From: Lactiplantibacillus pingfangensis
GTDB lineage: Bacteria > Bacillota > Bacilli > Lactobacillales > Lactobacillaceae
Assembly: GCF_005404945.1 (NCBI RefSeq)
Contig: NZ_BJDG01000002.1
Span: 1 to 64,000 of the forward strand
DNA length: 64,000 nucleotides
Direction of reading: 5' to 3'
The notes beneath the pieces are model-generated. The model was not told the DNA's origin. It worked only from the letters and a program-made list of their open reading frames with translations, and did not search any database. Every line of letters starts with the position of its first letter. Within the stretch, counting starts at the first letter, position 1. The translations under genes were made by a program, and so were the position numbers. Of this stretch, positions 5,596 through 48,729 are shown piece after piece.

Positions 5596-5782
5596 GCTTC
5601 CGGTCGCCACTGATAACATGCGACCGTGGGACCGGATCAAGCCTGAGAAACGTCTTGAGCCTCGCCCGGAACCCTTGCACAAATCGCAAGTGTCCCGGAC
5701 CGTCCGTGGCGTAACGCCGGCAAAAAGCATGCCGACCCAACGCCACCATCATGACCGATGCTATCAGTGGCGACTTCCAGCT
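5596..5782 (+). repeat. Structured intergenic repeat A, copy 1
   Basis: About 187 bp starting GCTTCC and ending CCAGCT. The closing stem is GTCGCCACTGATA (5603-5615) against TATCAGTGGCGAC near the 3' end. Inside lie three hairpins: TCAAG/CTTGA, CTTGC/GCAAG, and GTGGCGT/ACGCCAC around a CGGC/GCCG inner stem. The copy at 28938 shares an extra 5' flank of about 80 bp with it (CATGTCA...TTGACATG inverted repeat at about 5557-5591). It begins 123 bases after the marR-type stop codon. No protein is credible across it. Confidence 0.85.
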
Positions 5783-6174
5783 AATTTGACAGTGTTTGCG
5801 AGTCCGTTTGTTCTTTCAACCTTCAGCTAAATTGGTTGACCGTTAGGATATGGGCGACCATCTTCAATTGTTGCTGAGTTTATATATATTGATGTAATGG
5901 CGTCTTCGCTGTCTTTAGCGGTGTCAATTTTTGGTAAACAAAATATTAGAGAGAGTAGAATCATCATAATTGTTGTATAAAATTGGATTGAAAGGTTTGG
6001 GGCATAGCTCAAACTTAGCCACTTTCGATGACTGAGCATTTCAGTAGGTTATGGGGGCCAATCTAAAAAGCAAGTCTTGAAAGATGTTTGTGGTGTAATT
6101 ACCAAGCCCATGTGCTAATGCCACGGACACAGCGAATTATATGGCATGCTAGATATAGATTGATCGTGGGTCCA

Positions 6175-6423
6175 AATTAAAATCACGTCAGTACGATTGT
6201 ATTAACGTGATTTTAATAAAACGGTCTGTATTCGAATGTCCCACTCCGGAAGTCAGTCGGTTAGTGTGGACGTGCTGAAATTTCTCTTAGCTGAGTGGGT
6301 TGCTCAGTTTAGAGAAAGGACAGCTTTCAAGATTTGTGGGCTTGACAAAGCTTGAAAGTGAGGCTGGCGACCGCTTTGTGGCGCCAACCGGTCCCAGCTC
6401 GGGAACACTAACCGACTGACTGG
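6175..6423 (+). repeat. Intergenic repeat C, copy 1, with 17-bp terminal inverted repeats
   Basis: The core 6251-6421 is bounded by AGTCAGTCGGTTAGTGT and its perfect inverse. Between the ends are three hairpins: TTCTCT..AGAGAA, CTTTCAAG/CTTGAAAG, and a hairpin with loop GACCGCTTTGTGGC. A left extension (6175-6250) holds AAAATCACGT/ACGTGATTTT and is also conserved in the inverted copy at 62591-62848. There is no transposase ORF. It resembles a MITE or a structured RNA repeat. About 5783-6174 holds no gene I can support; a degraded hairpin (GTGGTGTAAT..AATGCCAC, about 6090-6124) lies there. Confidence 0.8.
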
Positions 6424-6557
6424 AGGAATCTGGTTAAAGACTTTTGTTTTGAGCGCTAAGTATGTTGAACGGCAACGATTATTTTGAACTTACGGCGATT
6501 GTGCCATAATGAACTTTGTGGTAATTGCATGCGAATTGAAATGTTGAGTTTTAAGAA

Positions 6558-6606
6558 AACAAAAAAGCCGTCATACGAGGTGTTAGCGACCTCGTTGACG
6601 ACTTTC
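6558..6606 (-). terminator. Terminator of tRNA-Gln (minus strand)
   Basis: On the minus strand AAAGTCGTCAACGAGGT pairs with ACCTCGTATGACGGCTTT around a short loop, and the T run reads TTTTTTGTTTTC. It lies 13 bases beyond the tRNA 3' end. Confidence 0.85.
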
Positions 6607-6618
6607 AAAACATTAAAA

Positions 6619-6691
6619 TTGGGTATACTGGGCTCGAACCAGTAAATTACGGATTCAGAGTCCGCTGCCTTACCAATTTGGCGAATACCCA
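6619..6691 (-). tRNA. tRNA-Gln (anticodon CTG)
   Basis: The minus strand gives a full cloverleaf: acceptor TGGGTAT/ATACCCA, D arm GCCAAATTGGTAAGGC, anticodon arm GCGGA-CTCTGAA-TCCGT, T arm ACTGG-TTCGAGC-CCAGT, discriminator A. Positions 34-36 are CTG, reading CAG codons. The acceptor and D-arm sequence match bacterial tRNA-Gln. The gene stands alone with its own promoter and terminator. Confidence 0.92.
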
Positions 6692-6706
6692 ATAAACAAC
6701 TATTCA

Positions 6707-6735
6707 ATTTTAACTTTATGCACAAATCATGTCAA
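6707..6735 (-). promoter_or_regulatory. Promoter of tRNA-Gln (minus strand)
   Basis: Minus strand TTGACA (6730-6735), a 17-base spacer, then TAAAAT (6707-6712), about 16 bases ahead of the mature tRNA 5' end. Near-consensus sigma-A promoter. Confidence 0.8.
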
Positions 6736-6852
6736 CACTAATCCGATAAATAGGCCTTTTTTTTGCATATAAGCGTTCTGATGCAGGCCTTGTACTTTTT
6801 CCATCGACTGTTGTACGATTAAAATACGCATAAAAAGGAAAGCGGTGGTCAC

Positions 6853-7335
6853 ATGTTGTTGGTCGTCATAAGTTTTGTGGTGATTATTCTCGGAATCGTT
6901 TTGACGTTGTTGGCGGTGCGCGGTATGAGTAAGCAGCCGTTATTCACAGTGTCGGCTGGTGCGGATGCGACCACGGCCAAACGATTGTTTAATTTTTCGC
7001 CATTTATTGATTTTCGTCTGTGGGAGCGCGGCTTGGTCATTGTTGCGGGTGTTGTAGTAGTTGCGGCGATTGTTATGGCGCTGGTTGCCTTCAAGCAAGC
7101 GGCGACTCGATTATTTGCGCTCAGCTTTGATGTCGGCTTCTTAAGCTATTTGTTAGTCTTTCAACAGTGGCTACCAGCGCACTGTGTGCGCTTTTGGGAT
7201 CAATACCCACCTATTGATCAGAACTTTCAGCTAACGCCGGTCACGACCAGACAGCGGCATCTGAGTAGTCGTTGGTTGCGAACGCTCGGCTTATTGTTGA
7301 TTGCTGCTGGGGCAACCGGGTTCTTCTTCATTTAA
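6853..7335 (+). CDS. Integral membrane protein of unknown function
   Basis: 160 residues with an N-terminal membrane segment (about 2-22), a second pair in the middle (about 65-85 and 90-110) and a C-terminal one (about 142-160), so probably four helices. The family is not recognised. AAAGGAAAG lies upstream of the ATG. The next gene, also a small membrane protein, starts 18 bases after its stop, so the two are likely co-transcribed and may act together. Confidence 0.75.
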   Translation: MLLVVISFVVIILGIVLTLLAVRGMSKQPLFTVSAGADATTAKRLFNFSPFIDFRLWERGLVIVAGVVVVAAIVMALVAFKQAATRLFALSFDVGFLSYLLVFQQWLPAHCVRFWDQYPPIDQNFQLTPVTTRQRHLSSRWLRTLGLLLIAAGATGFFFI

Positions 7336-7352
7336 GAAAAGAGGGTGGTCGC

Positions 7353-7559
7353 GTGACGGCCAAAGATTTAACACGATTGTTTAATCATATTCGGCAACAG
7401 TTAATTGTGTGGGCAGTGACGGCGATTGGGTTAGCGGTAATGCGGACCTTCTTGTTACCGCAACTGCTGACATTTGTCTTCTGGTGTAGCGTGGCTTATT
7501 GCCTAATTTTGTTTATTGGCTTGGTTGTCGTGACAATTTGGCGATTAAGGGTGAAATGA
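7353..7559 (+). CDS. Small membrane protein
   Basis: 68 residues starting at GTG 7353, chosen because GAGGG at 7341-7345 lies seven bases upstream; earlier in-frame starts would overlap the previous gene. A charged N-terminus (TAKDLTRLFNHIRQQ) is followed by two hydrophobic helices (about residues 18-38 and 42-62). The family is not recognised. It probably forms a two-gene unit with the upstream membrane protein. Confidence 0.7.
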   Translation: MTAKDLTRLFNHIRQQLIVWAVTAIGLAVMRTFLLPQLLTFVFWCSVAYCLILFIGLVVVTIWRLRVK

Positions 7560-7563
7560 AGGA

Positions 7564-7592
7564 TTGACAACACCGCTATTTTTCGGTAAGAT
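7564..7592 (+). promoter_or_regulatory. Promoter of tRNA-Glu
   Basis: TTGACA (7564-7569), 17-base spacer, TAAGAT (7587-7592), 13 bases ahead of the mature tRNA 5' end. Confidence 0.8.
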
Positions 7593-7605
7593 AGTTATTG
7601 AATTT

Positions 7606-7678
7606 TGCCCGCTGGTCAAATTGGTTAAGACGTCGCCCTCTCAAGGCGGAGTTACGAGTTCGATCCTCGTGCGGGCGA
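7606..7678 (+). tRNA. tRNA-Glu (anticodon CTC)
   Basis: Cloverleaf: acceptor TGCCCGC/GCGGGCG, D arm GTCAAATTGGTTAAGAC, anticodon arm TCGCC-CTCTCAA-GGCGG, T arm ACGAG-TTCGATC-CTCGT, discriminator A at 7678. The anticodon is CTC, reading GAG. The D arm is typical of tRNA-Glu. Like the tRNA-Gln at 6619 it is a single-gene unit with a C34 anticodon. Confidence 0.9.
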
Positions 7679-7702
7679 TTTGACAACACCTTGGGAGAAC
7701 GA

Positions 7703-7748
7703 AAAGCTTTGATAAACACTGTTATGTCAGTGTTTGTTAAAGCTTTTT
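7703..7748 (+). terminator. Terminator of tRNA-Glu
   Basis: AAAGCTTTGATAAACACTG pairs with CAGTGTTTGTTAAAGCTTT around TTATGT and ends in a T run; 25 bases beyond the tRNA. Confidence 0.88.
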
Positions 7749-7783
7749 ATTTGGACAAATTGACGTTGGGTAAACAAATTAGG

Positions 7784-7811
7784 TTTACGCAGGGAAAATG
7801 GGGACTATAAT
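7784..7811 (+). promoter_or_regulatory. Promoter for the genes at 7901 and 8155
   Basis: TTTACG (7784-7789), 16-base spacer, TATAAT (7806-7811). A direct repeat TTGACGTTGG(G/T)TAAA flanks it at 7760 and 7845, 85 bases apart, and could be an operator; that part is inference. Confidence 0.6.
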
Positions 7812-7900
7812 AGAGTTGTAGCTAGATGGGTAACGCCAAGTGGATTGACGTTGGTTAAAAATTTACCGGTAAAAAGTCAAAATAAAGGAGATCATGATTT

Positions 7901-8128
7901 TTGGTATACAAAGACGTGTTTGGAATTGACCACGAGGATTGTCACATTGTGCAGACCCGGCATGAATTCAACCGAATTTTTATTATTGAAAATGACGTTG
8001 GCTCACGGTTTACTTGTATCAAAAAAGATGCCCCGCTAGAAAAGAAAATGTCTGGTCATTGGAAGTATGCAAAGGCCAGTGATGCACCTAAAAACTACGC
8101 GGTTCCTTATAAGGCGCAAAAAAGTTAA
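7901..8128 (+). CDS. Hypothetical 75-residue protein
   Basis: Not recognised. The best start is TTG 7901, ten bases after AAAGGAG; the ATG at 7894 is in another frame and stops after ten codons. The product is soluble-looking and charged (motif GIDHEDCHIVQTRHEF, basic C-terminus PYKAQKS), with no signal or membrane segment. A small membrane protein gene follows 26 bases later. Confidence 0.6.
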   Translation: MVYKDVFGIDHEDCHIVQTRHEFNRIFIIENDVGSRFTCIKKDAPLEKKMSGHWKYAKASDAPKNYAVPYKAQKS

Positions 8129-8154
8129 GGCTACCGACTGAAAAGAGGATCGAG

Positions 8155-8427
8155 ATGCGATTGTATCAACCGTTAACCAAACATAATGGGCGCGTGCCCC
8201 GTAGTGGAAAAGTTCGTAATAATCCATTTTACGGGATTCATGGTGCCGACTGGGTCAAAAATGAGAGTGCCTCGCTATTCAATGCCGAGCACGAACAGGC
8301 GCAACCCCATCACCAACTGCATCGGCGTGTTGGTCAAACAACGCGCAAGATTTTGTGGGCGATGGTCATCGTGATTGGCATGTTGATCATTGGTTTCATC
8401 CTTTATTCATTGGCAATTAACTTTTAA
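8155..8427 (+). CDS. Single-pass membrane protein of unknown function
   Basis: 90 residues: a basic, His-rich N-terminal 60 residues (HHQLHRRVGQTTRK) and one C-terminal membrane helix (about 66-88), suggesting a tail-anchored protein with a cytoplasmic basic domain. AAGAGGA lies seven bases ahead of the ATG. It probably shares a transcript with the gene at 7901. No family recognised. Confidence 0.7.
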   Translation: MRLYQPLTKHNGRVPRSGKVRNNPFYGIHGADWVKNESASLFNAEHEQAQPHHQLHRRVGQTTRKILWAMVIVIGMLIIGFILYSLAINF

Positions 8428-8435
8428 AGCAATCA

Positions 8436-8494
8436 AATAGAACGACACTTCAGCAATGACGAAATCGTCTCGTTGAAGTGTCGTTCTATTTTAT
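8436..8494. terminator. Bidirectional terminator
   Basis: AATAGAACGACACTTCA (8436 on) pairs with TGAAGTGTCGTTCTATT; A run before and T run after, so it can end both the + strand unit and the convergent deacetylase gene. Confidence 0.88.
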
Positions 8495-8496
8495 TG

Positions 8497-9336
8497 TTAT
8501 TTAAGCAGTCCCGCAAATGTTTCTAAGGACATGCCGGGTGTGACGCGTTGACGCGTTAAATTATAAGGGTCAGTCTCGCTAGTGGCAATTCCCGGAGCGG
8601 TTGATAAGGCGTACTTGTAGCCTGCCTTTTTGGCGGCGCGGCTGGTGGCTGCATTCGCCCGGCCGGCTGGATAACAAATGACTGGCGTTTTCTGGTGCAA
8701 GTTTTGATCGAGCCAGCGTTTCGACTCAGTGAGCTCTTTAAGCTGATCGGCATAGCTGAGTTCGTTTAAATCGAGATGCCTGACGGTGTGACTCTGGAAG
8801 TCGATGACGCCGGAAGCGGCCATTTTCTTTGCATCTGCGAGGGATAAATGGTTCGGATGGGTCGCAAACCCGGTAATGAAGTTAATCGTCGCATGTTGAT
8901 GATTGGCTTTCAAAATTGGCCAGGCCGCAGTTTTGTTATCCGTGTAGCTGTCATCTAAGGTGACCCAAACGATTTTTTGTTGTGGAATCCGGTGATGAGA
9001 TAAGGCGTAAACCGCTTCGGTCGTCGTCAATGTGCGGTAATGCTGTTGTTTCAAATAAGCCATCTCAGCCTTGAATTCAGTAGCTGGGACTTTGAGGGCA
9101 TTGCCGCTGGAAATACTATGGTACATTAAAATCGGTAGTTTAACCGTTTTGACGGTTTTCCAGTCTGCATACGGCGACTTTTTGGGCTTGGTCGCTTTCC
9201 GTGTGACTTTTTTAGATGATACCGTTGAACTAGCTGCTTTAGAGTTGCTTGTGCCGCTACCACAGCCCGCTAAACCGACGATGAGTAATGTTAGCAAGCC
9301 GAAGCCTACAAAGTGTTTAAAACCCCTAAAATGCAT
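8497..9336 (-). CDS. Lipoprotein polysaccharide deacetylase
   Basis: 279 residues from the ATG at 9336, which has GGGGGAG upstream. Residues 1-25 are a lipoprotein signal (LIVGLAGCGS, lipobox Cys). A linker rich in Ser/Lys/Thr follows, then a NodB-type carbohydrate esterase 4 domain: LPILMYHSI, VWVTLDDSYTDN (metal and catalytic Asp pair), FQSHTVRH (metal-binding His pair) and CYPAGRANA. It is expected to sit outside the membrane and deacetylate peptidoglycan or another N-acetylated glycan. It is convergent with the preceding unit. The start at 9420 was rejected because it lacks a ribosome binding site and would bury the signal peptide. Confidence 0.9.
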   Translation of the reverse strand: MHFRGFKHFVGFGLLTLLIVGLAGCGSGTSNSKAASSTVSSKKVTRKATKPKKSPYADWKTVKTVKLPILMYHSISSGNALKVPATEFKAEMAYLKQQHYRTLTTTEAVYALSHHRIPQQKIVWVTLDDSYTDNKTAAWPILKANHQHATINFITGFATHPNHLSLADAKKMAASGVIDFQSHTVRHLDLNELSYADQLKELTESKRWLDQNLHQKTPVICYPAGRANAATSRAAKKAGYKYALSTAPGIATSETDPYNLTRQRVTPGMSLETFAGLLK

Positions 9337-9592
9337 AATAACTCCCCCCGAAATCTTGATTGTTTTAATTTTAACGGATTTTTTGGAATTTGGCGCGTTT
9401 TTGCTGAAAAAAACTGACAATTATTTAAGCTAGCAGTGCCCCTCAGGGAAAACTAATGTATTAAGAATTCGTTGACTTTGTTAGCAATTGTTTAATCAAG
9501 TTAAGAATGATTTAGCCCCTCTAGGCAGGCACGTTGCGGCTTGATACGATAGTGCTTGTAATCAAAAAATCACTCTTGCGGGGGAAACAAGT

Positions 9593-9985
9593 ATGAAGAA
9601 ATTAATTATTGGGTTGTTAGTTGTGATGGGCGTGAGTGTTGCGGCGCTGTTGGGTGCCGGGACGCTGACGAAGGATAGCGGGTCGGAGTTGTCAATGGCA
9701 CTCGATAACGTGAATCCGTTAGTCAAGACGAGTACTGTTTATGGTGTCACCAACACTGCGATTAAAAAAGGGAAAGGCGGCGCTGGCGAAGACATTTATA
9801 CTTATCGAATTAAGACCGTCGATGTGAAAGGCCAGGCCCGTTGGTTGACTTTTACCGCCGACAAACGGTTGAAACTAAATAAATATTTGAAGATCGACAC
9901 CAAAGGTCAGAATGTCAATAGTTGGGAAGCAGTGAGTTTACAAGCGGTTCCCAAGACCGTGGTTCAGCAATTGGCGAACAGCTAA
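9593..9985 (+). CDS. YxeA-family (DUF1093) small exported protein
   Basis: 130 residues with an N-terminal signal or anchor helix (residues 3-24) and an OB-like beta domain: YTYRIKTVDVKGQARWLTFTADKRL, then YLKIDTKGQNVNSWEAV, matching the YxeA/DUF1093 pattern. GGGGGAAAC lies upstream. Function is unknown in the family. It is monocistronic, ended by the terminator at 10046. Confidence 0.82.
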   Translation: MKKLIIGLLVVMGVSVAALLGAGTLTKDSGSELSMALDNVNPLVKTSTVYGVTNTAIKKGKGGAGEDIYTYRIKTVDVKGQARWLTFTADKRLKLNKYLKIDTKGQNVNSWEAVSLQAVPKTVVQQLANS

Positions 9986-10045
9986 ATGAAGCTGCGCCAC
10001 CAGCTGTTTTGTATTTTCAAATTATCAAGTGTAAAAAATAAGGCT

Positions 10046-10088
10046 AAAAGACGAGCAAACCAGAAAAATCAGGTTGCTCGTCTTTTTT
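10046..10088 (+). terminator. Terminator after yxeA-type gene
   Basis: AAAAGACGAGCAACC-type stem: AAAAGACGAGCAAAC pairs with GTTGCTCGTCTTTT around CAGAAAAATCAG, ending in TTTTTT. The rest of 9986-10390 holds only the promoter at 10310. Confidence 0.85.
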
Positions 10089-10309
10089 GATGTCGTCTAG
10101 ATCATCGCTTCCAGTTGCTAACCCGCCGTACTTCACGATTATAAGTCATGGAGGGTTCACCATGAGTCTAATAGTGACCGGTCCGTTATAATGACAGTAA
10201 ACGATGACTAGACACAAACTTTCGGGGCCTTAAGAAATTCTTAAACCCTTTTAGCTGTCAAAGCGTTAGAGTTGCGTTACAATGGTTTGCGTGAGACTTG
10301 TAAAGATGG

Positions 10310-10338
10310 TTGACAAAACACTGATTTTTAGCTAAATT
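10310..10338 (+). promoter_or_regulatory. Promoter of ABC exporter unit
   Basis: TTGACA (10310-10315), 17-base spacer, TAAATT (10333-10338), 52 bases ahead of the first ABC gene. Confidence 0.65.
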
Positions 10339-10390
10339 AGATAATTGCACTGTCATTAGCATAATTATATTAGTGAAGGGGAGCGTGTTG

Positions 10391-14973: not shown

Positions 14974-15060
14974 AGTCAAATGACTAAAGGTTGAGAGACG
15001 GAAATCACTAATAAACGCAGTCGTACCAGAACATTGGTGATGAAAAAAGCCAACGTTGTC

Positions 15061-15247
15061 GCTTCCGGGCGTCGCCGATTACATGCGGACGAGGGACCAG
15101 GCCAAGCCTGAGGAGCGGTCTTGGCCTTCGCCCGGAATAGTTGCAAACACCGCAACTATCCCGGACCGTCCGTCCCGTAAGACCGGCAAGAAACTGCCGC
15201 TCAAACGGGACTTTCACGTCCGATGCAATCAGCGACGCCCTACAGCT
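15061..15247 (+). repeat. Structured intergenic repeat A, copy 2
   Basis: The most diverged copy, and the most informative. Closing stem GGGCGTCGCCGAT against ATCAGCGACGCCC. Hairpins: GGCCAAG/CTTGGCC, AGTTGC/GCAACT (CTTGC/GCAAG in most copies) and GTCCCGT/ACGGGAC (GTGGCGT/ACGCCAC elsewhere). In each case both sides changed together. It begins 142 bases after the lipoprotein stop. 15248-15438 holds nothing I can support. Confidence 0.85.
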
Positions 15248-15438
15248 AGGCTAGTGGTTTTAAGGATAAAAAACTCAAAAGCAGTTGATTTGAGTCTTAA
15301 AATTATGGCATCAGTTAGCAATGTGTTGAATTTTGTTGGCTGCTTTCATTGGCCGTCCGTGGTGTAAAGTCGGTCAAAAAATAGAAGTGTTTATTATTGA
15401 TGTGATGCTGTCCACGATTGTTCTAAAGTTGTAAATCG

Positions 15439-17044: not shown

Positions 17045-17065
17045 GATGTGTAGCTGAAGGTTGTC

Positions 17066-17247
17066 GCTTCCGGCTGGGACTGATAACATGCGGCCGTGGG
17101 ACCGGTCCAAGCCAAGCGCGTCTTGGCCCTCGCCCGGAACCCTTGCAAAAATCGCAAGTGTCCCGGTCCGTCCGTGGCGTAAAATCGGCAAAGACAGCCG
17201 ATTAACGCCACCTTCACGACCGATGTTATCGGTCCCAGCCTTCAGCT
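17066..17247 (+). repeat. Structured intergenic repeat A, copy 3
   Basis: Closing stem GGCTGGGACTGATAACAT against ATGTTATCGGTCCCAGCC, extended inward by CGGCCGTG/CACGACCG, giving about 21 pairs with one bulged G. Hairpins CCAAG/CTTGG, CTTGC/GCAAG, GTGGCGT/ACGCCAC. AGCTGAAGG at 17052-17060 can extend the stem against the terminal TTCAGCT. It begins 69 bases after the bcaT stop. Confidence 0.88.
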
Positions 17248-17394
17248 ATTAGGTCTGTCTGACGGAGTACTCATCACGAGTTTAGTTTAGGTATGATGAT
17301 ATTGCCCTGTTCATATTTTTTGTACTTGCAACCTTTAGTATTCGAATACATTGATCTGAAAGTGGCGTTGTATTTATGACAGACGCCTTAATTT

Positions 17395-17520: not shown

Positions 17521-17790
17521 AAGAAAAAAGTAAAGGGGCAAATAATTTTATTGCAGTTTGAGTTGGTGTTAATTAAAGCGTTAAGTAGCTTATTTAGTTT
17601 GATCATTGCAGCTTTGTTAGAGCAGATTTACGCCTGTACAACAGTGGACAGGTGCTCGAGTGTTACGAACGGACAGTCGAACCTTGAATGGTTTGTTGGG
17701 CACGATTTTTCTCAACGCCGTTTAGTTCAATGGATGGTTATTTGGCGAATATTTTTAGGTGACCGATAGTTCAAAACAATGCACAATTCT

Positions 17791-18043
17791 AGCCGTGAGG
17801 GGGCTTCGTTTGGAGCTCAGCCGTGGCGTTTGACTTAGCGCGGTGATTTGTCCGCGGTTAGTCAAAAACCAGCTTTTGAGACCGCTTTTTGGCTCAAAAC
17901 TGGTTCATGGCGTTCCAGCCCCAAACGAAGTCCCCGGTAGGCGGAAATTAGTGCTATTCGTCAATCAATTGACAATCTGGAATTTGAATGAAAGACCTAA
18001 CAGTAATGAATTTGGAGTGAACCGAGAAAAAACTTGATACTTA
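17791..18043 (+). repeat. Structured intergenic repeat B, copy 1
   Basis: Core 17791-17950 (160 bp). The long closing arms GGGGGCTTCGTTTGG and CCAAACGAAGTCCCC enclose TTTGACT/AGTCAAA and a second hairpin with arms TTTTGA/TCAAAA around loop GACCGCTTTTTGGC. A 3' tail to about 18043 (TGAATGAAAGACCTAACAGT...) is shared with the copies at 29716 and 49049. It lies 219 bases ahead of the hydrolase gene. Confidence 0.85.
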
Positions 18044-28852: not shown

Positions 28853-28937
28853 CTTCTAAGTAAAGGTTGAAAGAGAAAAATCGCTAATAATTACCGCCAT
28901 GTCAATGATTAAGGCGTGAAGATTAGCTGACATGGCC

Positions 28938-29124
28938 GCTTCCAGTCGTCACTGATAACATGCGGCCGTGGGACCGGGTCAAGCCTGAGGAACGTCTTGG
29001 CCCTCGCCCAGAACCCTTGCACAAATCGCAAGTGTCCCGGACCGTCCGTGGCGTAACGCCGGCAAGAAACATGCCGACCCAACGCCACCATCACGGCCGA
29101 TGCTATCGGCGGCGACTTTCAGCT
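28938..29124 (+). repeat. Structured intergenic repeat A, copy 4
   Basis: Closing stem AGTCGTCACTGATA against TATCGGCGGCGACT (G-T pairs and one mismatch), hairpins CAAG/CTTG, CTTGC/GCAAG, GTGGCGT/ACGCCAC. It shares the longer 5' flank with copy 1 (CCATGTCAATGATTA...GCTGACATGG, about 28897-28936). It begins 137 bases after the upp stop. Confidence 0.85.
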
Positions 29125-29283
29125 AATTTAACTGTTTTTAGGTTAGGATTTAGCGGAAGCGGAATTACCACTAATTTGGAAGTGTCTGTTACCTATATGA
29201 CAGTATTTACAAGCCCTTTTATTCTTTCAACTTTCAGTTTCTAAGTAAAAGGGCTCATGAGTACCGCTGTAGCTGTGAAAATC

Positions 29284-29365
29284 AGCTTCCGGTTGTCACT
29301 GATGTACTGATGTCATGCGAGCGAGGAACCGGGAGAAGCCTTAAAAGGCGGTCTTCTCCCTCGCA
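29284..29365 (+). repeat. Truncated repeat A fragment
   Basis: Starts GCTTCCGGTTGTCACTGATG and keeps only the 5' arm and first hairpin, here GGGAGAAG/CTTCTCCC, a new compensated version of TCAAG/CTTGA. The sequence diverges after CCCTCGC. The stretch 29366-29715 otherwise shows only the hairpin at 29483. Confidence 0.7.
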
Positions 29366-29482
29366 TTGTGCAATGTATGCTTTGGATTGAATTACAACTA
29401 ATAGTGCCTCTTTGAGGGCGATTTTAGTAAAAAGGGTGCTAATGTTTTGGGTTCTATGAAAAAAGTTATTAACCAACTTTGG

Positions 29483-29513: not shown

Positions 29514-29715
29514 TACCATAATATATGATAATTGTCGCATCGCTTTAAACGGTTCTAAATGTCGATATAATCCATTTTAAAACTAATTGACCAATTGGCT
29601 TGAAGCTACTGGTAATCATTGTGTGTCGACGTATTTAAACGAAAAATGCAGTGAGAGGACGACTGAACACTTGACTCAAAGCGATAACGATGGCTTTCAA
29701 AGGAAGAATTAGCAT

Positions 29716-29968
29716 AGCCGTGAGGGGGCTTCGTTTGGGGCTCAGCCGTGGCGTTTGACTTAGCGCGGGTCTTGTCCGCGGTTAGTCAAAAACCAGCTTT
29801 TGAGACCGCCCTTTGGCTCAAAACTGGTTCATGGCGTTCCAGCCCCAAACGAATCCCCCGGTAGGCGGAAATTAGCAGGATTCGTGAATTAATTGATGAG
29901 CTGGAACTTGAATGAAAGACTTAACAGTAATGAATTTAGAGAAAACGAAGGAAAACTTGACACTTACC
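29716..29968 (+). repeat. Structured intergenic repeat B, copy 2
   Basis: Core 29716-29874. Closing arms GGGGGCTTCGTTTGGGGCT and AGCCCCAAACGAATCCCCC (one mismatch), inner hairpins TTTGACT/AGTCAAA and TTTTGA-loop-TCAAAA with loop GACCGCCCTTTGGC. The 3' tail GAATGAAAGACTTAACAGT is shared with the copy at 17791. It sits ahead of the pyrP promoter. Confidence 0.87.
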
Positions 29969-30012: not shown

Positions 30013-30035
30013 TATTTCAATTAAACAGTTCCTTT

Positions 30036-30140
30036 AATTTAGCTCAGAGAGGCTGAAAAGGATTTGATCGGATCTTCACCATGAAATGGTGGAGCCAATT
30101 CAGACAGACCAGCCGCTTTGAGTGGGGGTCTGTCTTTTCT
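30036..30140 (+). promoter_or_regulatory. PyrR-type attenuator leader of the uracil permease
   Basis: CAGAGAGGCTGAAAAGG at 30045-30061 matches the conserved PyrR-binding loop (AGAGAGG). An antiterminator region with TTCACC/GGTGGA follows, then the terminator AGACAGACC/GGTCTGTCT with a T run at 30102-30138. In known PyrR systems UMP-bound PyrR stabilises the binding loop and allows termination, so uracil uptake drops when pyrimidines are plentiful. Confidence 0.85.
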
Positions 30141-38270: not shown

Positions 38271-38313
38271 GCAACTAAAAAAGTAAGCCCATATAGATTA
38301 GTTAAGTGTTGTC

Positions 38314-38497
38314 GCTTCCGGTTGTGGCTGATAACATGCGGTCGTGGGACCGGCCTGAGCCAGGCACGTCTCAGGCCGATCCCGGAACCCTTTCAAAAAC
38401 CGAAAGTGTCCCGGTCCGTCCGTGGCGTAATGTCGGTAAAAACCAGCCGATGTAATGCCACCATCACGACCGATGGGATCAGTCGCAACGGCCAGCT
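38314..38497 (+). repeat. Structured intergenic repeat A, copy 5
   Basis: Closing stem GTTGTGGCTGAT against ATCAGTCGCAAC, plus CGGTCGTG/CACGACCG. Hairpins CCTGAG/CTCAGG, CTTTC/GAAAG and GTGGCGT(A)/AATGCCAC. The first two are compensated changes relative to copies 1 and 3. It begins 114 bases after the atpC stop. Confidence 0.87.
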
Positions 38498-38628
38498 AAA
38501 GTTTAATGGGATATGGAGAACAGGATTTTAGCGTGTTATTTTCGTGACAATTTTGTTGATTACGACAAGTGTCGTTGCCGCAGTGCTGGTGATGGTTGCT
38601 ATCTGTGAGTTTGACGATAAGTTGTTTG

Positions 38629-42258: not shown

Positions 42259-42264
42259 TTGGCG

Positions 42265-42747: not shown

Positions 42748-42762
42748 TTTTTAGTTAACCTT

Positions 42763-42794: not shown

Positions 42795-42839
42795 TTGTAT
42801 AATCAAGCTTATCTTAGGAAAATAAGGAGCGTTATTATT

Positions 42840-44045
42840 GTGGCAGAAGAATCTAGACTTCGTGGTCAAGCAGAAGACTCACGGATTGATTGGGGTATTA
42901 TTTTCTCAATCATGATGCTAGGCTTGATTGGGCTGGCCTCAATTTATGTCGCCGCCAGTCACGATTCAAGTGTAGTTAATGTGACCAAACAAGTTGTGAC
43001 CCAAATCATGTGGTTTGTGATTGGGACAACGTTGGCTATTATTATTATGCAATTTGACTCCGAACAACTCTGGCGGGTGGCGCCATTGGCCTACTGGTTC
43101 GGGATATTCCTCTTGGTGGCGGTCTTAGTCTTGTATAGTCGCTCAATGTATGCAAGCACTGGGGCCAAAAGTTGGTTTGCCGTTGGATCATTAACCTTTC
43201 AGCCGTCAGAAATTATGAAGCCCGCGTTTATTTTGATGTTAGGGCGGGTCGTGACCAATCATAATACAGAATATCCGGCACATACGACAGCCGGTGATTG
43301 GCAATTAATCGGTAAGTTAGTCGCTTATACCGTGCCATTAATTATTTTATTAAAATTACAAAATGACTTTGGGACGATGTTGGTCTTTTTCGCCATTTTG
43401 GGTGGCGTGATTTTGGTCTCTGGGATTTCTTGGCGGCTACTTGCACCAGCATTTGGTATTGTATTCGTGTTTGCTGGGACGGTGCTTTTTCTAGTTATTA
43501 CCAATAGTGGCCGGAGCATTTTGGAAGCAGTTGGCTTCAAAGCTTATCAATTTGCACGAATTGATACTTGGCTAAATCCCTCAACCGATACGTCAAACAA
43601 CGCGTATCAAGTTTGGCAAAGTATGAAGGCGATTGGTTCTGGTCAGATTACTGGTCGTGGCTTTAATGTCTCACACGTCACGGTACCGGTTCGTGAATCT
43701 GATATGATCTTTTCCGTCATTGGCGAGAACTTTGGTTTCATCGGTTGTACGATTGTCGTGTTATTATATTTCTTATTAATTTATCAAATGATCCGTGTGA
43801 CTTTTGATACAAAAAATGAGTTTTATGCTTACATTTCGACTGGGGTTATTATGATGATCTTATTCCATGTTTTTGAAAATATTGGAATGAGTATTGGACT
43901 ATTACCAATGACCGGGATTCCGTTGCCGTTTATTAGTCAAGGGGGTTCGGCGTTGATTGCGAATATGGCCGGGATTGGGCTAATCATGTCGATGCGGTTC
44001 CATTACAAGTCATACATGTTTAGCCGCAATGATCGGTTTGAATAA
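42840..44045 (+). CDS. rodA: SEDS peptidoglycan glycosyltransferase RodA
   Basis: 401 residues from GTG 42840, ten bases after AAGGAG. Ten membrane segments; SEDS motifs GAKSWFAVGSLTFQPSEIMK and IPLPFISQGGSALIANMAGIGLIMS. It polymerises lipid II during side-wall growth. Neighbouring mbl supports RodA rather than FtsW. Confidence 0.92.
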   Translation: MAEESRLRGQAEDSRIDWGIIFSIMMLGLIGLASIYVAASHDSSVVNVTKQVVTQIMWFVIGTTLAIIIMQFDSEQLWRVAPLAYWFGIFLLVAVLVLYSRSMYASTGAKSWFAVGSLTFQPSEIMKPAFILMLGRVVTNHNTEYPAHTTAGDWQLIGKLVAYTVPLIILLKLQNDFGTMLVFFAILGGVILVSGISWRLLAPAFGIVFVFAGTVLFLVITNSGRSILEAVGFKAYQFARIDTWLNPSTDTSNNAYQVWQSMKAIGSGQITGRGFNVSHVTVPVRESDMIFSVIGENFGFIGCTIVVLLYFLLIYQMIRVTFDTKNEFYAYISTGVIMMILFHVFENIGMSIGLLPMTGIPLPFISQGGSALIANMAGIGLIMSMRFHYKSYMFSRNDRFE

Positions 44046-44065
44046 TGAGTTAAATCAAGGAAAGC

Positions 44066-44374
44066 ATGGTGTTGAATATGAGTGAAGATGCAAATTATTT
44101 TTGGACAAAAGATACTGACGGTCATACCCGAATTGGGTTAACAAAAGCTGCGCATGAAGCCTTAGGCGAAGTGAAGTATGCTGAGTTACCCGCCGTTGGT
44201 GACAAGGTTAGCCAAAAAGAAGCTTTCCTGAGCATTGAAGCAACTAAAGCAGTTTCAGAATTTAACTGCCCCATCAATGGGACAGTAACGGCGGTTAATC
44301 CCGCTTTGAAAGATGATTTTAAAGCCTTGAACAGTTTAGAAGATGGCGTCGCTTGGTTAATTGACGTCGATTAA
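44066..44374 (+). CDS. gcvH: Orphan glycine cleavage H-like lipoyl protein
   Basis: About 102 residues; the start may be 44066, 44069 or 44078, as AAGGAA sits close by. GcvH-like fold with the lipoyl Lys in FLSIEATKAVSEFNCPINGTV. No gcvP, gcvT or gcvL lies in the window. In organisms without the glycine cleavage system, H proteins are known to relay lipoate to 2-oxoacid dehydrogenases, which is the likely role here. Confidence 0.85.
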   Translation: MVLNMSEDANYFWTKDTDGHTRIGLTKAAHEALGEVKYAELPAVGDKVSQKEAFLSIEATKAVSEFNCPINGTVTAVNPALKDDFKALNSLEDGVAWLIDVD

Positions 44375-44383
44375 TTTTGGGGC

Positions 44384-44412
44384 TTGACAAGCAAAAAAGT
44401 CCTCGGTATACT
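44384..44412 (+). promoter_or_regulatory. Promoter of metNPQ
   Basis: TTGACA (44384-44389), 17-base spacer, TATACT (44407-44412). Confidence 0.85.
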
Positions 44413-44418
44413 CAGGAC

Positions 44419-44719
44419 ATTAATAATTCATTAGAAAATGTCATTTTGAAGAGATGAGTACGCGGCAGCGACTACTAAGAGAGTCCCAGTTTGGTGCAAA
44501 GGGATTAGGCGTGAAGCGGAAGATGGTCTTGAATCAATGCAATTCGGCGAGCAATGGTTAGCCGGGTTTGGATTGCACCCATTATCGTGCAGAGTTAAGA
44601 ACTAACTCTTGAGACAGCTTGTGTGAGCAAGTTGCAAAGATGGGTGGTACCGCGAGACTAAGCTTCTCGTCCTATTGGTTATGATGGTGATCATAATTGA
44701 TAGGACGAGAAGCTTTTTT
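44419..44719 (+). promoter_or_regulatory. T-box leader (methionine type) of metNPQ
   Basis: A leader of about 300 bases. Stem I motif AGAGAGTCCCAGTTTGG, specifier region GGAAGATGGTC with ATG at 44523-44525, and the T-box sequence GGTGGTACCGCG at 44643-44654. The terminator AGCTTCTCGTCCTAT/ATAGGACGAGAAGCT with a T run ends it. Uncharged tRNA-Met should favour read-through. The specifier call fits the downstream methionine importer but was read without folding software. Confidence 0.88.
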
Positions 44720-44805
44720 GTTTGCAATGTGATTGAGATTGATAAATGATTAAGACAATAAAATTGGTTCAGACCAATTTCACTGGCATAAGAGGAGGAA
44801 ATGAC

Positions 44806-45837
44806 TTGATCGAATTTAAAGATGTGACCAAAACATTTGATAGCAAGCAAGGCAGCGTGCATGCGGTTCAAGATGTGAACTTAAAAATCGAAGATGGCCA
44901 TATTTATGGCATTGTTGGTTATTCCGGCGCGGGTAAAAGTACCTTAATTCGGATGTTAAATGGGCTTGAAACGCCGACGAGTGGGGCCGTTAATATTGAC
45001 GGTGTTGAAATTTCAGCATTAACTGGGGCGGCGTTACGAGAACAACGCCATAAGATCGGCATGATTTTCCAACATTTCAACTTATTGTGGTCGCGCACGG
45101 TTTTGGAAAATATTATGTTTCCATTGGAAATCGCCGGTAACAATAAAGCCGATGCCAAGAAAAAAGCGGAGCATCTGGCTGAGTTAGTTGGGTTGACTGG
45201 TCGCGAAACGGCGTATCCTTCCGAGTTATCTGGAGGCCAGAAGCAACGGGTTGGGATCGCTCGGGCGTTAGCTAATGACCCACAGATTTTGCTTTCCGAT
45301 GAAGCAACCAGTGCGTTGGATCCACAAACCACTGATGAAGTGCTGGATTTATTACTAGACATCAATAAAAAATTGAATTTGACGATTGTGCTAATCACCC
45401 ATGAAATGCATGTTATTCGTAAGATCGCGGATCATGTGGCCGTCATGGAAGACGGTAAAATTGTTGAACAAGGCCCCGTTTTGGAAGTCTTTAAACGACC
45501 CAAGCAGGCTGTGACCAAACGTTTCGTGAACGAAGAAGTGACACCATCCTTGAACGAAACCACCGCGGTTGTGGGACAATTGCTTGAAAAGTATCCGAAA
45601 GGAACCATCGTTCAATTAACTTTCCATGGCGATCAAGCGCAATTACCAATCGTTTCGGAAATGTTGAAGCAATATACGTTAGACTTAAACATTATCGAAG
45701 GGGCGATTCACCAAACCCAAGAAGGGGCGATCGGCTCGTTATATATTCAAATTAGCGGTGATCAGGATCAACTTGATGGCGCGCTAGCTTACCTACAAAA
45801 AATGCGCGTTGAAACGGAGGTCTTGAATCGTGAATAG
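44806..45837 (+). CDS. metN: Methionine ABC importer, ATPase
   Basis: 343 residues starting at TTG 44806 behind AGAGGAGG. Walker [10 protein letters not shown], signature [14 protein letters not shown], Walker [13 protein letters not shown], switch His ITHEMH. The C-terminal 100 residues form the NIL domain, which binds methionine and inhibits transport. It overlaps metP by 8 bases. Confidence 0.95.
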
Positions 45838-46522
45838 TCAGGGATTAGGCTCATACTTTAATTTCTCAACTGTTGATTGGGGTAACATGTTGAGTTCTAC
45901 TTGGGAAACGATTTGGTTGACCTTAGTGTCCATGATCGTTGTCGCAATTTTAGGCATCGCGTTAGGCTTGCTATTATTCGAAACGACGAACAGCCAAAAC
46001 CCATTGGCTAAATTACTCAATTGGGTGGTTGCCTTATTCGTCAACGTCTTTCGGTCCATTCCATTTATTATTTTAATTGTTTTGTTATTACCAATCACGC
46101 AAAAATTGGTCGGGACGATTATCGGTCCCAGAGCAGCCTTGCCGTCACTTATCATTTCGGCGGCGCCATTTTATGCCCGGATGGTTGAGTTAGCCTTTCA
46201 TGAACTTGATCATGGGGTCGTTGAAGCGGCAGAATCCATGGGAGCTACCCGCTGGCAGATTATTCGCAAGGTGTTATTGCCTGAAAGCATGCCAGCATTA
46301 GTTTCTGGTATCACCGTGACCACGATTTCGTTGATTGGTTATACCGCAATGGCTGGCGCGATTGGTGCTGGGGGCCTTGGTAACTTGGCTTACCAAGATG
46401 GGTTCCAATCGAATAACAATGCGATTACGTTAGTCGCAACAGTTATTATTGTGATTATCGTCTTTATCTTTCAGTTTATCGGTGATTTTGCGGTCAAGCA
46501 TATCGATAAACGCGCAAATTAA
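45830..46522 (+). CDS. metP: Methionine ABC importer, permease
   Basis: 230 residues, five membrane helices, GTG start at 45830 overlapping metN. The ATPase-contact EAA loop is [26 protein letters not shown]. Gram-positive naming metP; equals metI of Enterobacteria. Confidence 0.94.
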
Positions 46523-46577
46523 CGGGTTTAGGCAATTTTAAAAAAGGGTTCAACAATTTGATTAGGAGGAATTAAGT

Positions 46578-47405
46578 ATGCGAAAAAAGCGGATTTTAGG
46601 GTTATTAGCTGTGGCGGCAACGGCCTTTTTATTAGTCGGATGCGGCAAGTCAACGTCTTCAAAGACGACGACCATTACAGTTGGGGCTTCAGCGGTGCCA
46701 CACGCTGAGATTTTAAAACATATCCAACCAGAATTGAAAAAGGAAGGCGTTAACTTAAAGATTAAAGTTTTCCAAGATTACGTTTTGCCGAATAAGGCCT
46801 TGGCTTCTAAAGAATTGGATGCTAATTATTTCCAGCATGTGCCATTTTTAGATAACTGGAACAAAGAGAATAACGGTAGCATAGTTTCAGCAGGCGCCGT
46901 TCACTTGGAACCAATCGGGGTTTTCTCAAAGAAAGTCAAAAATCTTAAAGACTTAAAAGACGGCGCAACCGTCTTAGTTAGCAGCAATGTTGCTGACTAC
47001 GGCCGAGTCTTAACTTTGTTCAAAGATGCTGGACTGATCACCTTGAAGAAGGGGACCGACATTACGTCAGCTAATTTTAGTGATATCGCGACGAATAAGA
47101 AGCACTTAGTCTTCAAGCATTCTTACGAAGCAAAGCTAATGCCTCAATTTTACAAGAATAATGAAGGCGACGCCGTTGTCATCAATGCCAACTATGCGGT
47201 TCAAGCTGGTTTAGATCCACGCAAAGATGCCATCGCGCTTGAAAAATCCGATTCGCCATACGCTAATATCGTGGCGGTTCGGAAGGGTGACAAAGATAAG
47301 CCAGCTATTAAGAAATTAATGAAGGCACTTCGGTCGAAGAGCACCCAAACTTGGATCAAGAATCATTACAAAGGGGCAATTTTGCCAGTTAGCTCAACCA
47401 ACTAA
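46578..47405 (+). CDS. metQ: Methionine-binding lipoprotein
   Basis: 275 residues with lipobox FLLVGCGKS at about 17-25 and the NlpA/MetQ fold: VGASAVPHAEILKHIQP, DANYFQHVPFL, YAVQAGLDPRKDAI. It is membrane-anchored on the outside and delivers methionine to MetNP. TAGGAGGA precedes the start. AEILKHI marks the MetQ subgroup. Confidence 0.94.
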   Translation: MRKKRILGLLAVAATAFLLVGCGKSTSSKTTTITVGASAVPHAEILKHIQPELKKEGVNLKIKVFQDYVLPNKALASKELDANYFQHVPFLDNWNKENNGSIVSAGAVHLEPIGVFSKKVKNLKDLKDGATVLVSSNVADYGRVLTLFKDAGLITLKKGTDITSANFSDIATNKKHLVFKHSYEAKLMPQFYKNNEGDAVVINANYAVQAGLDPRKDAIALEKSDSPYANIVAVRKGDKDKPAIKKLMKALRSKSTQTWIKNHYKGAILPVSSTN

Positions 47406-47411
47406 AACGGT

Positions 47412-47444
47412 GAAAAGTCAGTCTGAAAATGACTGGCTTTTTGT
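47412..47444 (+). terminator. Terminator of metNPQ
   Basis: AAAGTCAGTC pairs with GACTGGCTTT around TGAAAAT, followed by T residues. Confidence 0.75.
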
Positions 47445-47476
47445 TTACATTAAAATCGCATGAGACTAGGCGCCGC

Positions 47477-47505
47477 TTGACTTTAGCCCCCCTGCAAGGT
47501 ACGCT
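47477..47505 (+). promoter_or_regulatory. Promoter of hicD
   Basis: TTGACT (47477-47482), 17-base spacer, TACGCT (47500-47505). Confidence 0.6.
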
Positions 47506-47542
47506 AACTTTAGCAAATAATTTACAGAATGGAGTTAGTGTT

Positions 47543-48466
47543 ATGCGTAAATATGGTGTGATTGGTTTAGGTCAAGTTGGGGCAACAGTCGCTTACACAT
47601 TAGTGCAACATGGGACCGTTGACGAGTTAGTTTTGATTGATCATGATGAAGCCTTGGCACGCGCACAAAAGTTAGACTTAGATGATGCGTCGCCACGCTT
47701 GGGTTCCACAACTAAAATAATTTTGAATGATTATGCGGCCTTAGCGGATGCAGAAGTGCTGATTGTGGCTTCTGGGAATATCGGGGCCATTGATATGACT
47801 AGCTCAAAGGGGCGTTTTGGTGAATACGAGTCTAATCAAGCGATCGTTCGCGATATTGCACCTAAAATTGTGGCATCTGGTTTTAAAGGCATTTTAATTG
47901 ATATTATGAATCCTTGTGACGTAATGACCGACTATTTACAACGCATGACCGGCTTCGCCCGCAACCGGGTCTTTGGCACTGGGACGTTCTTGGACACTGC
48001 TCGGATGCAAAAATACGTTGGCCAAGCCTTAGGCACTAACGGTAAAAATGTGGCCGGCTATGTTTACGGTGAACACGGCAATTCACAATTTGTTGCGTGG
48101 TCAACCGTCGCGGTCAATGGTCAACCCATTGCAAACTTTAAAACTTTAGACTTGAAACAGCTTGAAGAAGATGCCCGTCAAGGCGCTTTTGCCGTTATGG
48201 CAGGGAAGCACTACACTAACTTTGCGATTGCCACTTGTGGGGTGCGACTTGCGGAAGCAGTCAGCGCCGACGAACAACTTGCTTGTCCAGTATCAGCCTT
48301 TGATCCTGATTTCGGCACCTACGTTGGGATGCCAGCCGTGATTGGCAAGAACGGGATTGAATCACTGATTCATTTGGAACTGACCGCTGCAGAGCAGGAC
48401 TCATTAGCTTCGTCAGCCAAATTCATCAAGTCAAAGGTTGATGTCTTACCACAGGCGGCAAAATAG
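47543..48466 (+). CDS. hicD: L-2-hydroxyisocaproate dehydrogenase (LDH/MDH family)
   Basis: 307 residues from ATG 47543 with TGGAG upstream. Rossmann motif GVIGLGQVGATVAYTL, Asp for NADH (VLIDHDE), substrate Arg region and catalytic His in GEHGNSQFVAW. The motif IMNPCDVMTDYL replaces the VxNPVD of true lactate dehydrogenases and fits HicDH enzymes. It reduces branched 2-oxo acids, using products of the BcaT reaction. Confidence 0.88.
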   Translation: MRKYGVIGLGQVGATVAYTLVQHGTVDELVLIDHDEALARAQKLDLDDASPRLGSTTKIILNDYAALADAEVLIVASGNIGAIDMTSSKGRFGEYESNQAIVRDIAPKIVASGFKGILIDIMNPCDVMTDYLQRMTGFARNRVFGTGTFLDTARMQKYVGQALGTNGKNVAGYVYGEHGNSQFVAWSTVAVNGQPIANFKTLDLKQLEEDARQGAFAVMAGKHYTNFAIATCGVRLAEAVSADEQLACPVSAFDPDFGTYVGMPAVIGKNGIESLIHLELTAAEQDSLASSAKFIKSKVDVLPQAAK

Positions 48467-48504
48467 CCGACAAACAAACTACTAGCCCAAATAATTAGTC
48501 GTTT

Positions 48505-48537
48505 CAACGAAGCTCGCTTTCGTTGGGCGGCTTTTTA
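48505..48537 (+). terminator. Terminator of hicD
   Basis: CAACGAA pairs with TTCGTTG around GCTCGCT, followed by GGCGGCTTTTT. Confidence 0.75.
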
Positions 48538-48581
48538 GGTTAGTCGTTGAAAGCGGGCCTGCTAGTAAACACTTGCCTGCC

Positions 48582-48729
48582 GCTTCCAGTTGGGACTGAT
48601 TGCATGCGGTCGTGGGACCGGTCCGAGCCAGGGGCGTCTCGGACCTCGCCCGGAACCCTTGCAAAAGGCGCAAGTGTCCCGGACCGTCCGTGGTGTAAAG
48701 ACCGATACAATCAGTCCCAACCTTCAGCT
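48582..48729 (+). repeat. Structured intergenic repeat A, copy 6 (short form)
   Basis: Closing stem GTTGGGACTGATTG against CAATCAGTCCCAAC (compensated against copies 1 and 3), hairpins GTCCGAG/CTCGGAC and CTTGC/GCAAG. The third hairpin is deleted (about 40 bases missing after GTGGTGTAA). It begins 116 bases after the hicD stop. Confidence 0.85.

Follow-up and report, generated by a model that had tools for sequence, protein, structure and literature searches.

A probably mobile intergenic repeat with facing three-hairpin modules in Lactiplantibacillus pingfangensis and other lactic acid bacteria

The window analysed here, a stretch of 64,000 nucleotides from Lactiplantibacillus pingfangensis (contig NZ_BJDG01000002.1, positions 1 to 64,000), was originally predicted to carry a repeat in six copies (5596, 15061, 17066, 28938, 38314 and 48582) and one fragment (29284), and all of these were found at those positions on the plus strand. 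The stems listed for them are present, namely the closing stem, a first hairpin of the TCAAG/CTTGA type, a second of the CTTGC/GCAAG type and a third of GTGGCGT/ACGCCAC or GTCCCGT/ACGGGAC; beyond these there is an extra inner stem of the CGGTCG/CGACCG type, and the third hairpin contains an additional hairpin. Up to three hairpins per copy are indeed seen, but the limits given for the unit do not hold, as it also takes in the terminal inverted repeats beyond them and, for many copies, a second module. No open reading frame of at least 120 amino acids lies over any of these copies.

A MITE copy of type C with a shortened right part (5517–5826, +) has its left end at 5517–5530, a module (+) at 5593–5783 and its right end at 5813–5826, with no target duplication recognised. 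A type B MITE copy (14984–15248, +) starts with the left end CTAAAGGTTGAGAG at 14984 and carries module (+) at 15058–15248, its right end not being recognised. In an old MITE copy of type A (17054–17338, +), CTGAAGGTTG lies immediately 5' of module (+) at 17063–17248 and the right end lies at 17325–17338; here too no target duplication was recognised. The type C MITE copy at 28860–29237 (+) runs from a left end at 28860 through module (+) at 28935–29125 to a right end reaching 29237, and has a target duplication, with the flanks CTTCTAAG and TTTCTAAG. It is followed by a module (+) fragment (29285–29420, +) that consists of the 5' side of the closing stem and the first hairpin only. Further on lie a module (+) without recognised terminal repeats (38311–38498, +) and a module (+) without the third hairpin (48582–48729, +), after which comes a partial (−) match at 48773–48836.

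A covariance model search over the window and related genomes, as proposed with the original prediction, was carried out with a model, R1, built from the second module without any of the originally noted copies. R1 recovers all six copies (25.1–53.9 bits), misses the fragment, and adds seven matches in the window. Besides the partial match at 48773 (−), these are a module of another sequence class (6266–6404, −, 48.3 bits); three modules (−) inside the direct-repeat family D1, at 17812–17944 (within 17771–17951, 32.0 bits), at 29737–29867 (within 29695–29875, weak with 22.7 bits and E 7e-4) and at 49070–49202 (within 49029–49209, 31.2 bits); and a facing pair, the left half of which is a module (+) of another class (62612–62751, 46.6 bits) and the right half a module (−) (62878–63015, 85.4 bits).

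The whole unit is about 540 bp long and runs from the end CTRAAGGTTGAAAG through a three-hairpin module (+) and a second three-hairpin module (−) to a matching end, and the repeat first noted is one arm only of this element. The second module diverges from the first in sequence, folds alike and has the opposite orientation. Each module measures about 140–190 nt, and the two sides of its outer stem stand about 150 nt apart. Against dinucleotide shuffles, the single copy 17063–17248 gave z = −8.80 when folded as RNA and −7.57 as DNA. Copies were collected with a 24-nt core pattern, the remainder of the core not being selected for; allowing up to two mismatches, the pattern occurs at 146 places in the genome, compared to 0 for the reversed control. 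The copy sets drawn from these places (100 of the 146 among the matches listed) comprised 97 copies in one set and 111 in another.

The CTRAAGGTTGAAAG terminal inverted repeats stand at both ends of type C copies and of the copies in the related genomes G001 and G002. Ends are not recognised in many old copies; in the host genome (G000), one or both are lacking from 64 of 111 copies. A target duplication of 7–8 bp was recognised: among 69 bounded copies, 40 have 6–9 matching flank bases (36 of them at least 7), compared to a mean of 1.6 and a maximum of 6 of 69 in 300 shuffles of the flanks, and 13 of 17 bounded copies in G001 carry one. IS4-family elements with matching ends occur in the host genome (locus L191, with a split gene) and in relatives; paired ends surround the IS4_4 transposase gene at L191, L291, L292, L293 and L295, not at L296, and a 7-bp flank match of these transposase-bearing elements was found for L292 and L293 only. 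Because of the terminal repeats, the target duplications and the IS4-family elements with the same ends, the element in this Lactiplantibacillus clade is, judged from sequence, an IS4-related MITE. The copies in G001 are 97.5% alike, and the presence of a copy at a given gap differs among relatives. The original prediction had set itself against a mobile element whose stems come from recent inverted duplication; the element does appear mobile, but its stems are not explained in that way, because the arms differ strongly in sequence yet keep the fold.

Transposition of the core alone was also considered. Repeats flanking the right end of the core itself were found in 22 of 114 copies without the full pair of ends (mean of 13.6 and maximum of 22 in shuffles) and in 22 of 80 copies with the full pair (mean of 13.6 and maximum of 21). 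In the latter set they stem mainly from a repeat internal to the element; given this and the small excess, they were discounted as evidence. The copy 17063–17248 had no match at E 1e-5 in plasmid and phage collections.

The module extends further. It was found in 19 of 21 genomes of the genus, 2 being without a match, compared to 5 of 21 with IS4_4 matches; with stricter filters than in the genus search, it was found in 16 of 101 genomes of the family, which represent 8 of 40 genera including its own, and in three genomes from two other families. R1 gives approximate E-values, and among the family genomes G093 and G101 are each supported by a single near-limit match. Per-genome counts are to be read as 'at least', the candidates scored per genome being at most 150 for the genus, 32 for the family and 22 for the other families. 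Tens to more than 100 intergenic gaps are occupied in several lactic acid bacteria. Neighbouring modules less than 600 bp apart are almost always arranged as facing doublets: 25 of 27 are (+,−), 2 are (−,−) and 0 are (−,+). In the Furfurilactobacillus loci, neither CTRAAGGTTG ends nor a clear target duplication was seen.

As originally predicted, changes on one side of a stem are accompanied by changes on the other. In 95 copies from six genomes, 92.1% of cells are paired compared to 82.5% after shuffling, and 527 cells are doubly changed compared to 165 in shuffles, levels reached in 0 of 500 shuffles; when one side was slid, 35–56 double-change cells were left at 2–3 columns and 95–135 at 1 column. 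This alignment, A2, comprises 95 of 223 copies, chosen by a recognised right end, by length and by a maximum number per genome, and at least two of its sequences (L093 and L281) depart from the family midway. In a second count, with the seventh helix one column off, 356 double changes were observed compared to about 55 expected, the expectation being a rough independence estimate that ignores relatedness. Across genera, two-sided change was found in 25 of 37 pairs (27 sequences).

The AGCC and GTCT loop columns are invariant in the 27 sequences spanning genera, and in the core, conservation averages 0.84 for unpaired and 0.82 for paired letters. The most invariant junctions, ACATG and GGACC, sit within the motif used to find copies, and conservation of that 24-nt stretch is therefore by choice. 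Singleton variation is 0.026 in the core and 0.030–0.036 in the arms for type C, and 0.033 and 0.044–0.045, respectively, for type B; shared variation in the arms exceeds that in the core two- to fivefold, and old copies have lost arms and retained the core. In the genome G010, 33 of the 36 copies retain a full-length core, both ends being recognised in 7 of the 36, one of these 7 with a left arm of normal length. Shortened cores also occur (9 of 76 measured type A/C and 5 of 24 type B in G000, 3 of 40 in G002), these lengths depending on automated end detection, which may set ends at the wrong place.

Whether the fold matters as DNA or RNA was approached through departures from pairing, counted on module copies alone. 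Among 6,200 cells, 193 are G-U and 189 A-C; one-sided departures number 305 and 306, respectively, the seventh helix being in register for the former count and the 527-cell test and one column off for the latter. Across genera, 35 G-U and 64 A-C were counted among 2,621 cells, this count and its alignment, A4, being fitted to the covariance model. G001 alone has 44 G-U and 14 A-C (one helix off register), and in Furfurilactobacillus the relation is reversed (4 and 30). Of the features expected of a structured RNA, compensatory changes are thus present, and a much greater tolerance of G-U than of A-C is not. Because the two departures are about equal, the pairing pattern favours DNA over RNA as the folded form. 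Fold energy did not serve to choose a strand: folding favours the minus strand in 169 of 177 copies, with a mean advantage per genome of 8.6–14.7 kcal/mol, and this is read as composition because in the one tested copy the energies of the shuffled sequences move by as much (z −8.80 and −8.77).

Selection of the pairing in a transcript, with a structured non-coding RNA (an sRNA or 3' UTR element) riding on a MITE, is in our view unlikely, even though a multi-branched fold with conserved loop letters is typical of RNA. With gene orientations taken from ad hoc ORF picking, the nearest upstream gene is on the same strand for 91 of 111 host-genome copies, and copies in co-directional gaps lie with rather than against the genes at 47:11 in the host genome and 17:5 in G010, but this bias is absent in G001 (5:4) and G002 (13:10), and the large sets have no G-U excess. 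A search of Rfam 15, likewise proposed earlier, gave no module match at gathering scores. The nearest entry, RF02616 SSRC8_2 (Streptococcus sRNA 8), resembles the hairpin region of streptococcal R1 loci over about 60 of its 281 positions, and according to excerpts of PMC3675131, Northern blots revealed SSRC8 in S. pyogenes; however, the matches at the three loci reach 34.6–38.1 bits where the gathering score is 72, and they lie on the strand opposite to the module. No SSRC8_2 match was reported in the searched lactobacillus stretches.

We give a similarly low probability to an ordinary MITE with functionless hairpins, in which template switching during replication perfects imperfect palindromes and so keeps stems paired. 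The element is a MITE by the evidence above, G-U and A-C are balanced as DNA-level correction would yield, singleton variation in the core is just somewhat under that in the arms, and unpaired letters are on average hardly more conserved than paired ones. Against this, the fold and its AGCC...GTCT loop letters persist over genera and into other families, the sides of the outer stem are far apart, shared variation in the core is reduced, and old copies keep the core. The compensatory changes that the original prediction took as selection on base pairing are real, but such repair may account for them as well as selection. As for in-place selection, same-orientation orthologous copies have core identities of 0.74–0.87 (10 listed of 16 pairs). 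Most of these pairs seem to have arisen by independent insertion of types peculiar to each species, L100/L270 being the one pair that looks shared.

Finally, a host-adopted intergenic site (for a nucleoid protein, gyrase or an insulator) selected at each place is improbable, since the full-length G010 cores and the preference of G000 copies for gene 3' ends are set against the occupation of the same gaps, across species, by unlike copy types in both orientations, a presence that varies between species, and two genus genomes without a match.

Among known systems, IS4-family MITEs share with this element terminal inverted repeats in common with a transposase-bearing element, a 7–8-bp target duplication, the lack of a long open frame, high copy number and T-rich intergenic targets; different from them, the interior here consists of two diverged three-hairpin folds with compensatory changes, and the fold also occurs in genera in which no such ends were observed. 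REPINs, in excerpts of PMC3116915, are likewise intergenic units of two structured inverted modules plus spacer, but their module is one short REP, and the present IS4-type MITE is not associated with a Y1 (RAYT-type) transposase. A Y1/RAYT link was rejected: Y1_Tnp occurs in 13 of the 21 genomes of the genus, among them the two without the module, and is absent from the module-bearing G001, G004, G007, G010, G011, G012, G015 and G020. The ERIC, Bcr1 and Efa-1 stem-loop families (excerpts of PMC2267715) are also intergenic repeats with a predicted fold, in some cases for both strands; the sole lactobacillus family in these excerpts is Lac-1 of L. johnsonii, which is genic, and no family with this fold was seen among the table rows covered. 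No description of this repeat was recognised in the part of the open-licence PMC literature covered.

We therefore consider it probable that the repeat is a small non-autonomous mobile element in which two three-hairpin modules face each other in a REPIN-like doublet, and that its fold is important at the DNA level. An IS4-type transposase would bind the ends and move the element in this clade, with insertion into T-rich DNA, often beside terminators. Both modules would be kept folded as DNA, as single-strand hairpins or cruciforms, and a putative protein would read the fold together with the conserved loop letters AGCC...GUCU; no such protein was found. The likeliest use would be the element's own spread or tolerance, as for the REP hairpins of REPINs, rather than neighbour-by-neighbour gene regulation. 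Points that we count against this reading are the overlap of the streptococcal relative with SSRC8, the few genus genomes with IS4_4, imperfect strand symmetry, the near-equal conservation of paired and unpaired letters, the invariant junctions inside the search motif, and the Furfurilactobacillus loci without these ends. More tentatively, the modules could be order-wide mobile repeats, their ends recognised as folded three-hairpin DNA and not by sequence, as an analogue of REPINs or attC with a putative recombinase or binding protein of their own, and captured as a MITE by IS4-type transposons in one Lactiplantibacillus clade.

The lack of an Rfam model for this module leaves a large annotation blank in these genomes. 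An old question about structured intergenic repeats, whether they are selected as RNA, as DNA or as neither, becomes testable here by a simple count together with probing, and should the fold itself prove to be the recognised feature, the element would be a new example of DNA mobility guided by structure.

All six copies of the three-hairpin repeat (5596, 15061, 17066, 28938, 38314 and 48582) and the fragment (29284) were found in the window where the original prediction had placed them. A 24-nt pattern from the core, the structured repeat between the arms, occurred at 146 places in the 2.9-Mb genome (reversed control, 0), and none of the 111 copies examined there lay inside an open frame of more than 150 codons. 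The 97 copies aligned fall into three sequence types: 49 of type A, 28 of type C and 20 of type B. The alignment showed that the predicted repeat unit was real but bounded too short. Type C copies, and those of two compared genomes, G001 and G002, share a conserved block that starts at CTAAAGGTTGAAAG, spans the predicted repeat plus a second, likewise structured stretch, and closes with CTTTCAACCTTCAG or a close variant, giving a complete element of about 540 bp. Matching flanks of 6-9 bases, mostly 7 or 8, were present in 40 of the 69 copies with both ends, compared to a mean of 1.6 and a maximum of 6 copies when the right flanks were shuffled among copies. Outside the window, the same genome contains a 1,460-bp element (G000:C2:121196-122655) that shares its ends with the repeat and carries a split IS4-family transposase gene. 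IS4_4 genes in other genomes had these ends at four of five further loci inspected, with 7-bp flank matches at two, and the IS4_4 family profile had matches in 5 of 14 control genomes, none above its cut-off. Given these ends, the target duplications and the IS4-family genes bounded by the same ends, the repeat in its own clade is an IS4-type MITE, and as a mobile unit it agrees with the MITE description in every feature tested. In locus L191, a 387-codon frame (434-1597, +) that by eye looks like an IS110-type transposase adjoins the split IS4 element.

Read on the opposite strand, the second stretch shows a closing stem, GGGAC and three hairpins, the first of which has AGCC...GTCT, and it differs in sequence from the first module. 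By its predicted fold, the second arm is the same three-hairpin module as the first. Among 27 neighbouring module matches less than 600 bp apart, 25 were arranged (+ then -), two (-,-) and none (-,+), and the spacer was 99-138 bp in 17 of the 25 facing pairs. In 17 Furfurilactobacillus facing pairs, neither recognisable CTRAAGGTTG ends, the terminal repeats of the own clade, nor a clear target duplication was found. Because these doublets stand without them, the shared design is the doublet rather than the IS4 end. The available part of PMC3116915 describes REPIN doublets as 93% inverted with compensatory changes, a plan like that of this family; however, the Y1 transposase, the partner of REPINs, is not associated with this module. 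MITEs are described as AT-rich with stable stem-loop transcripts in PMC10969869, whose main text lacks the words Lactobacillus and Lactiplantibacillus, and the single lactobacillus family shown in the portion seen of PMC2267715 is genic. Our literature search recognised no published description of this repeat family.

A covariance model (R1) built from 27 second modules, with none of the predicted copies included, detected all six copies, with scores of 25.1 to 53.9 bits, plus seven further matches within the window. Other features of the window are a PyrR binding-site leader (30027-30140, +; RF00515, 59 bits), a 6S RNA (57358-57546, -; 46.8 bits, barely above the Rfam threshold of 46.4) and a 147-nt sequence present twice (23-169 and 217-363; 86% alike, 194 bp apart) upstream of the gene at 510. 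Of 21 genomes of the genus, 19 gave module matches with R1, eight of them at least 100 and the poorest at least five. The two genus genomes lacking a match, G018 and G019, are both about 2.6 Mb with several Y1 transposase matches each. Within the Lactobacillaceae, R1 matched 16 of 101 genomes, representing 8 of the 40 genera covered, the own genus among them; under stricter settings, in 148 genomes sampled across the order, it matched the own genome and three genomes of two other families, but none of the remaining own-family genomes in that sample. Genomes G330 and G419 are probably streptococcal, judging from an Rfam sub-match and neighbours resembling purine genes by eye. Locus L350, from another family, has two module copies within 1 kb (612-755 and 1496-1630 (-)) with very long, well-paired stems and common outer ends AGACTTCT / AGAAGTCT.

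At the gap of copy 15061, modules were present in four of 12 relatives (L001, L002, L007, L008) and absent from eight, with both flanking genes alignable in all 12, and at that of 17066 a module was present in L005; this comparison scores presence or absence per gap, not aligned empty sites. The four module sequences at the former have little in common with the predicted type. A transporter gene in the window has homologues of 90-93% identity in ten Lactiplantibacillus species and one further assembly, on which basis we take the genome to be of that genus. Some 1.8 kb downstream of the transporter, nhmmer located modules at four Furfurilactobacillus loci, a placement by distance that does not imply equivalent gaps. 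In L148, L227 and L253, three species share stretches of 270-960 bp downstream of the repeat, at one and the same gap, with 95-99.7% identity, although their other flank is just ~79-80% alike; this can be read either as fresh transfer or as a very conserved unit. L094 combines two cores on one strand (G000:C3:67626 and 67780), type B following type A at a distance of 154 bp, by either nested insertion or recombination between types.

The G001 copies are 97.5% alike, and large deletions affect 3 of the 18 cores measured there and 5 of the 16 right parts, roughly as their lengths would predict; in G010, the core is full-length in 33 of 36 copies and both ends were found in only 7 of 36; the own genome (G000) is intermediate: of the 76 type A/C cores measured, 9 are shortened. 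Compared with the arms, the core has two to five times less shared variation and just slightly less private variation. Since shared variation is much lower in the core and deletions mostly spare the G010 cores, spreading lineages retain the core, and it may to some extent also be kept in place. In co-directional gaps, copies were oriented with the genes at 47:11 in G000, 17:5 in G010, 5:4 in G001 and 13:10 in G002. At insertion sites in G001, a left-hand T run (9/17) was about as frequent as a right-hand A run (8/17), whereas in G000 the left-hand T run predominated (17/47 versus 5/47). The orientation bias may come from retention, target or both.

The predicted covariation of the stems was borne out: with helices placed on the consensus by eye, the 95 copies, drawn from six genomes, gave 527 cells with two-sided changes versus 165 in shuffles, 34 of 54 pairs with such changes versus 21.0, and 92.1% paired cells versus 82.5%, and none of 500 shuffles equalled the observed value on any of five pairing measures, indicating that pairing is truly conserved. 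Sliding one side by one column left 95-135 double-change cells, and by two or three columns 35-56; this control weighs more than the shuffles because relatedness inflates double-change counts. Core identity averages 0.84 for unpaired and 0.82 for paired letters, and as the most invariant core junctions belong to the search motif, and are hence conserved by the choice of copies, core conservation does not decide between RNA and DNA. In 27 second modules of several genera, gathered independently of that motif, the AGCC and GTCT loop columns do not vary, which speaks for a putative reader of the fold.

In a transcript under selection, one-sided changes to G-U should survive more often than those to A-C, an expectation resting on general knowledge of RNA families, set here against counts from this repeat family alone. 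G-U was not appreciably commoner in the three larger sets: 193 versus 189 (6,200 cells, 114 copies), 305 versus 306 one-sided departures (223 copies) and 35 versus 64 (2,621 cells, 74 module matches, several genera). G001 by itself favoured G-U (44:14), in the direction of a structured RNA whose pairing is selected in the transcript, and the Furfurilactobacillus set did the opposite (4:30), to which a few shared columns contribute in part; many such departures occur in one copy only and may be unselected. We keep the RNA explanation alive mainly because hairpins of the module's relatives overlap SSRC8, an S. pyogenes sRNA that PMC3675131 reports as detected on Northern blots; SSRC8 corresponds to part of these hairpins, but on the other strand. 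In the single copy tested, both strands fold equally well relative to shuffles. As G-U is not in excess of A-C and both strands fold alike, we read this as pairing maintained, or corrected, at the DNA level. The family is thus a mobile element in which two copies of a widespread three-hairpin module face each other, and its fold most likely matters as DNA.
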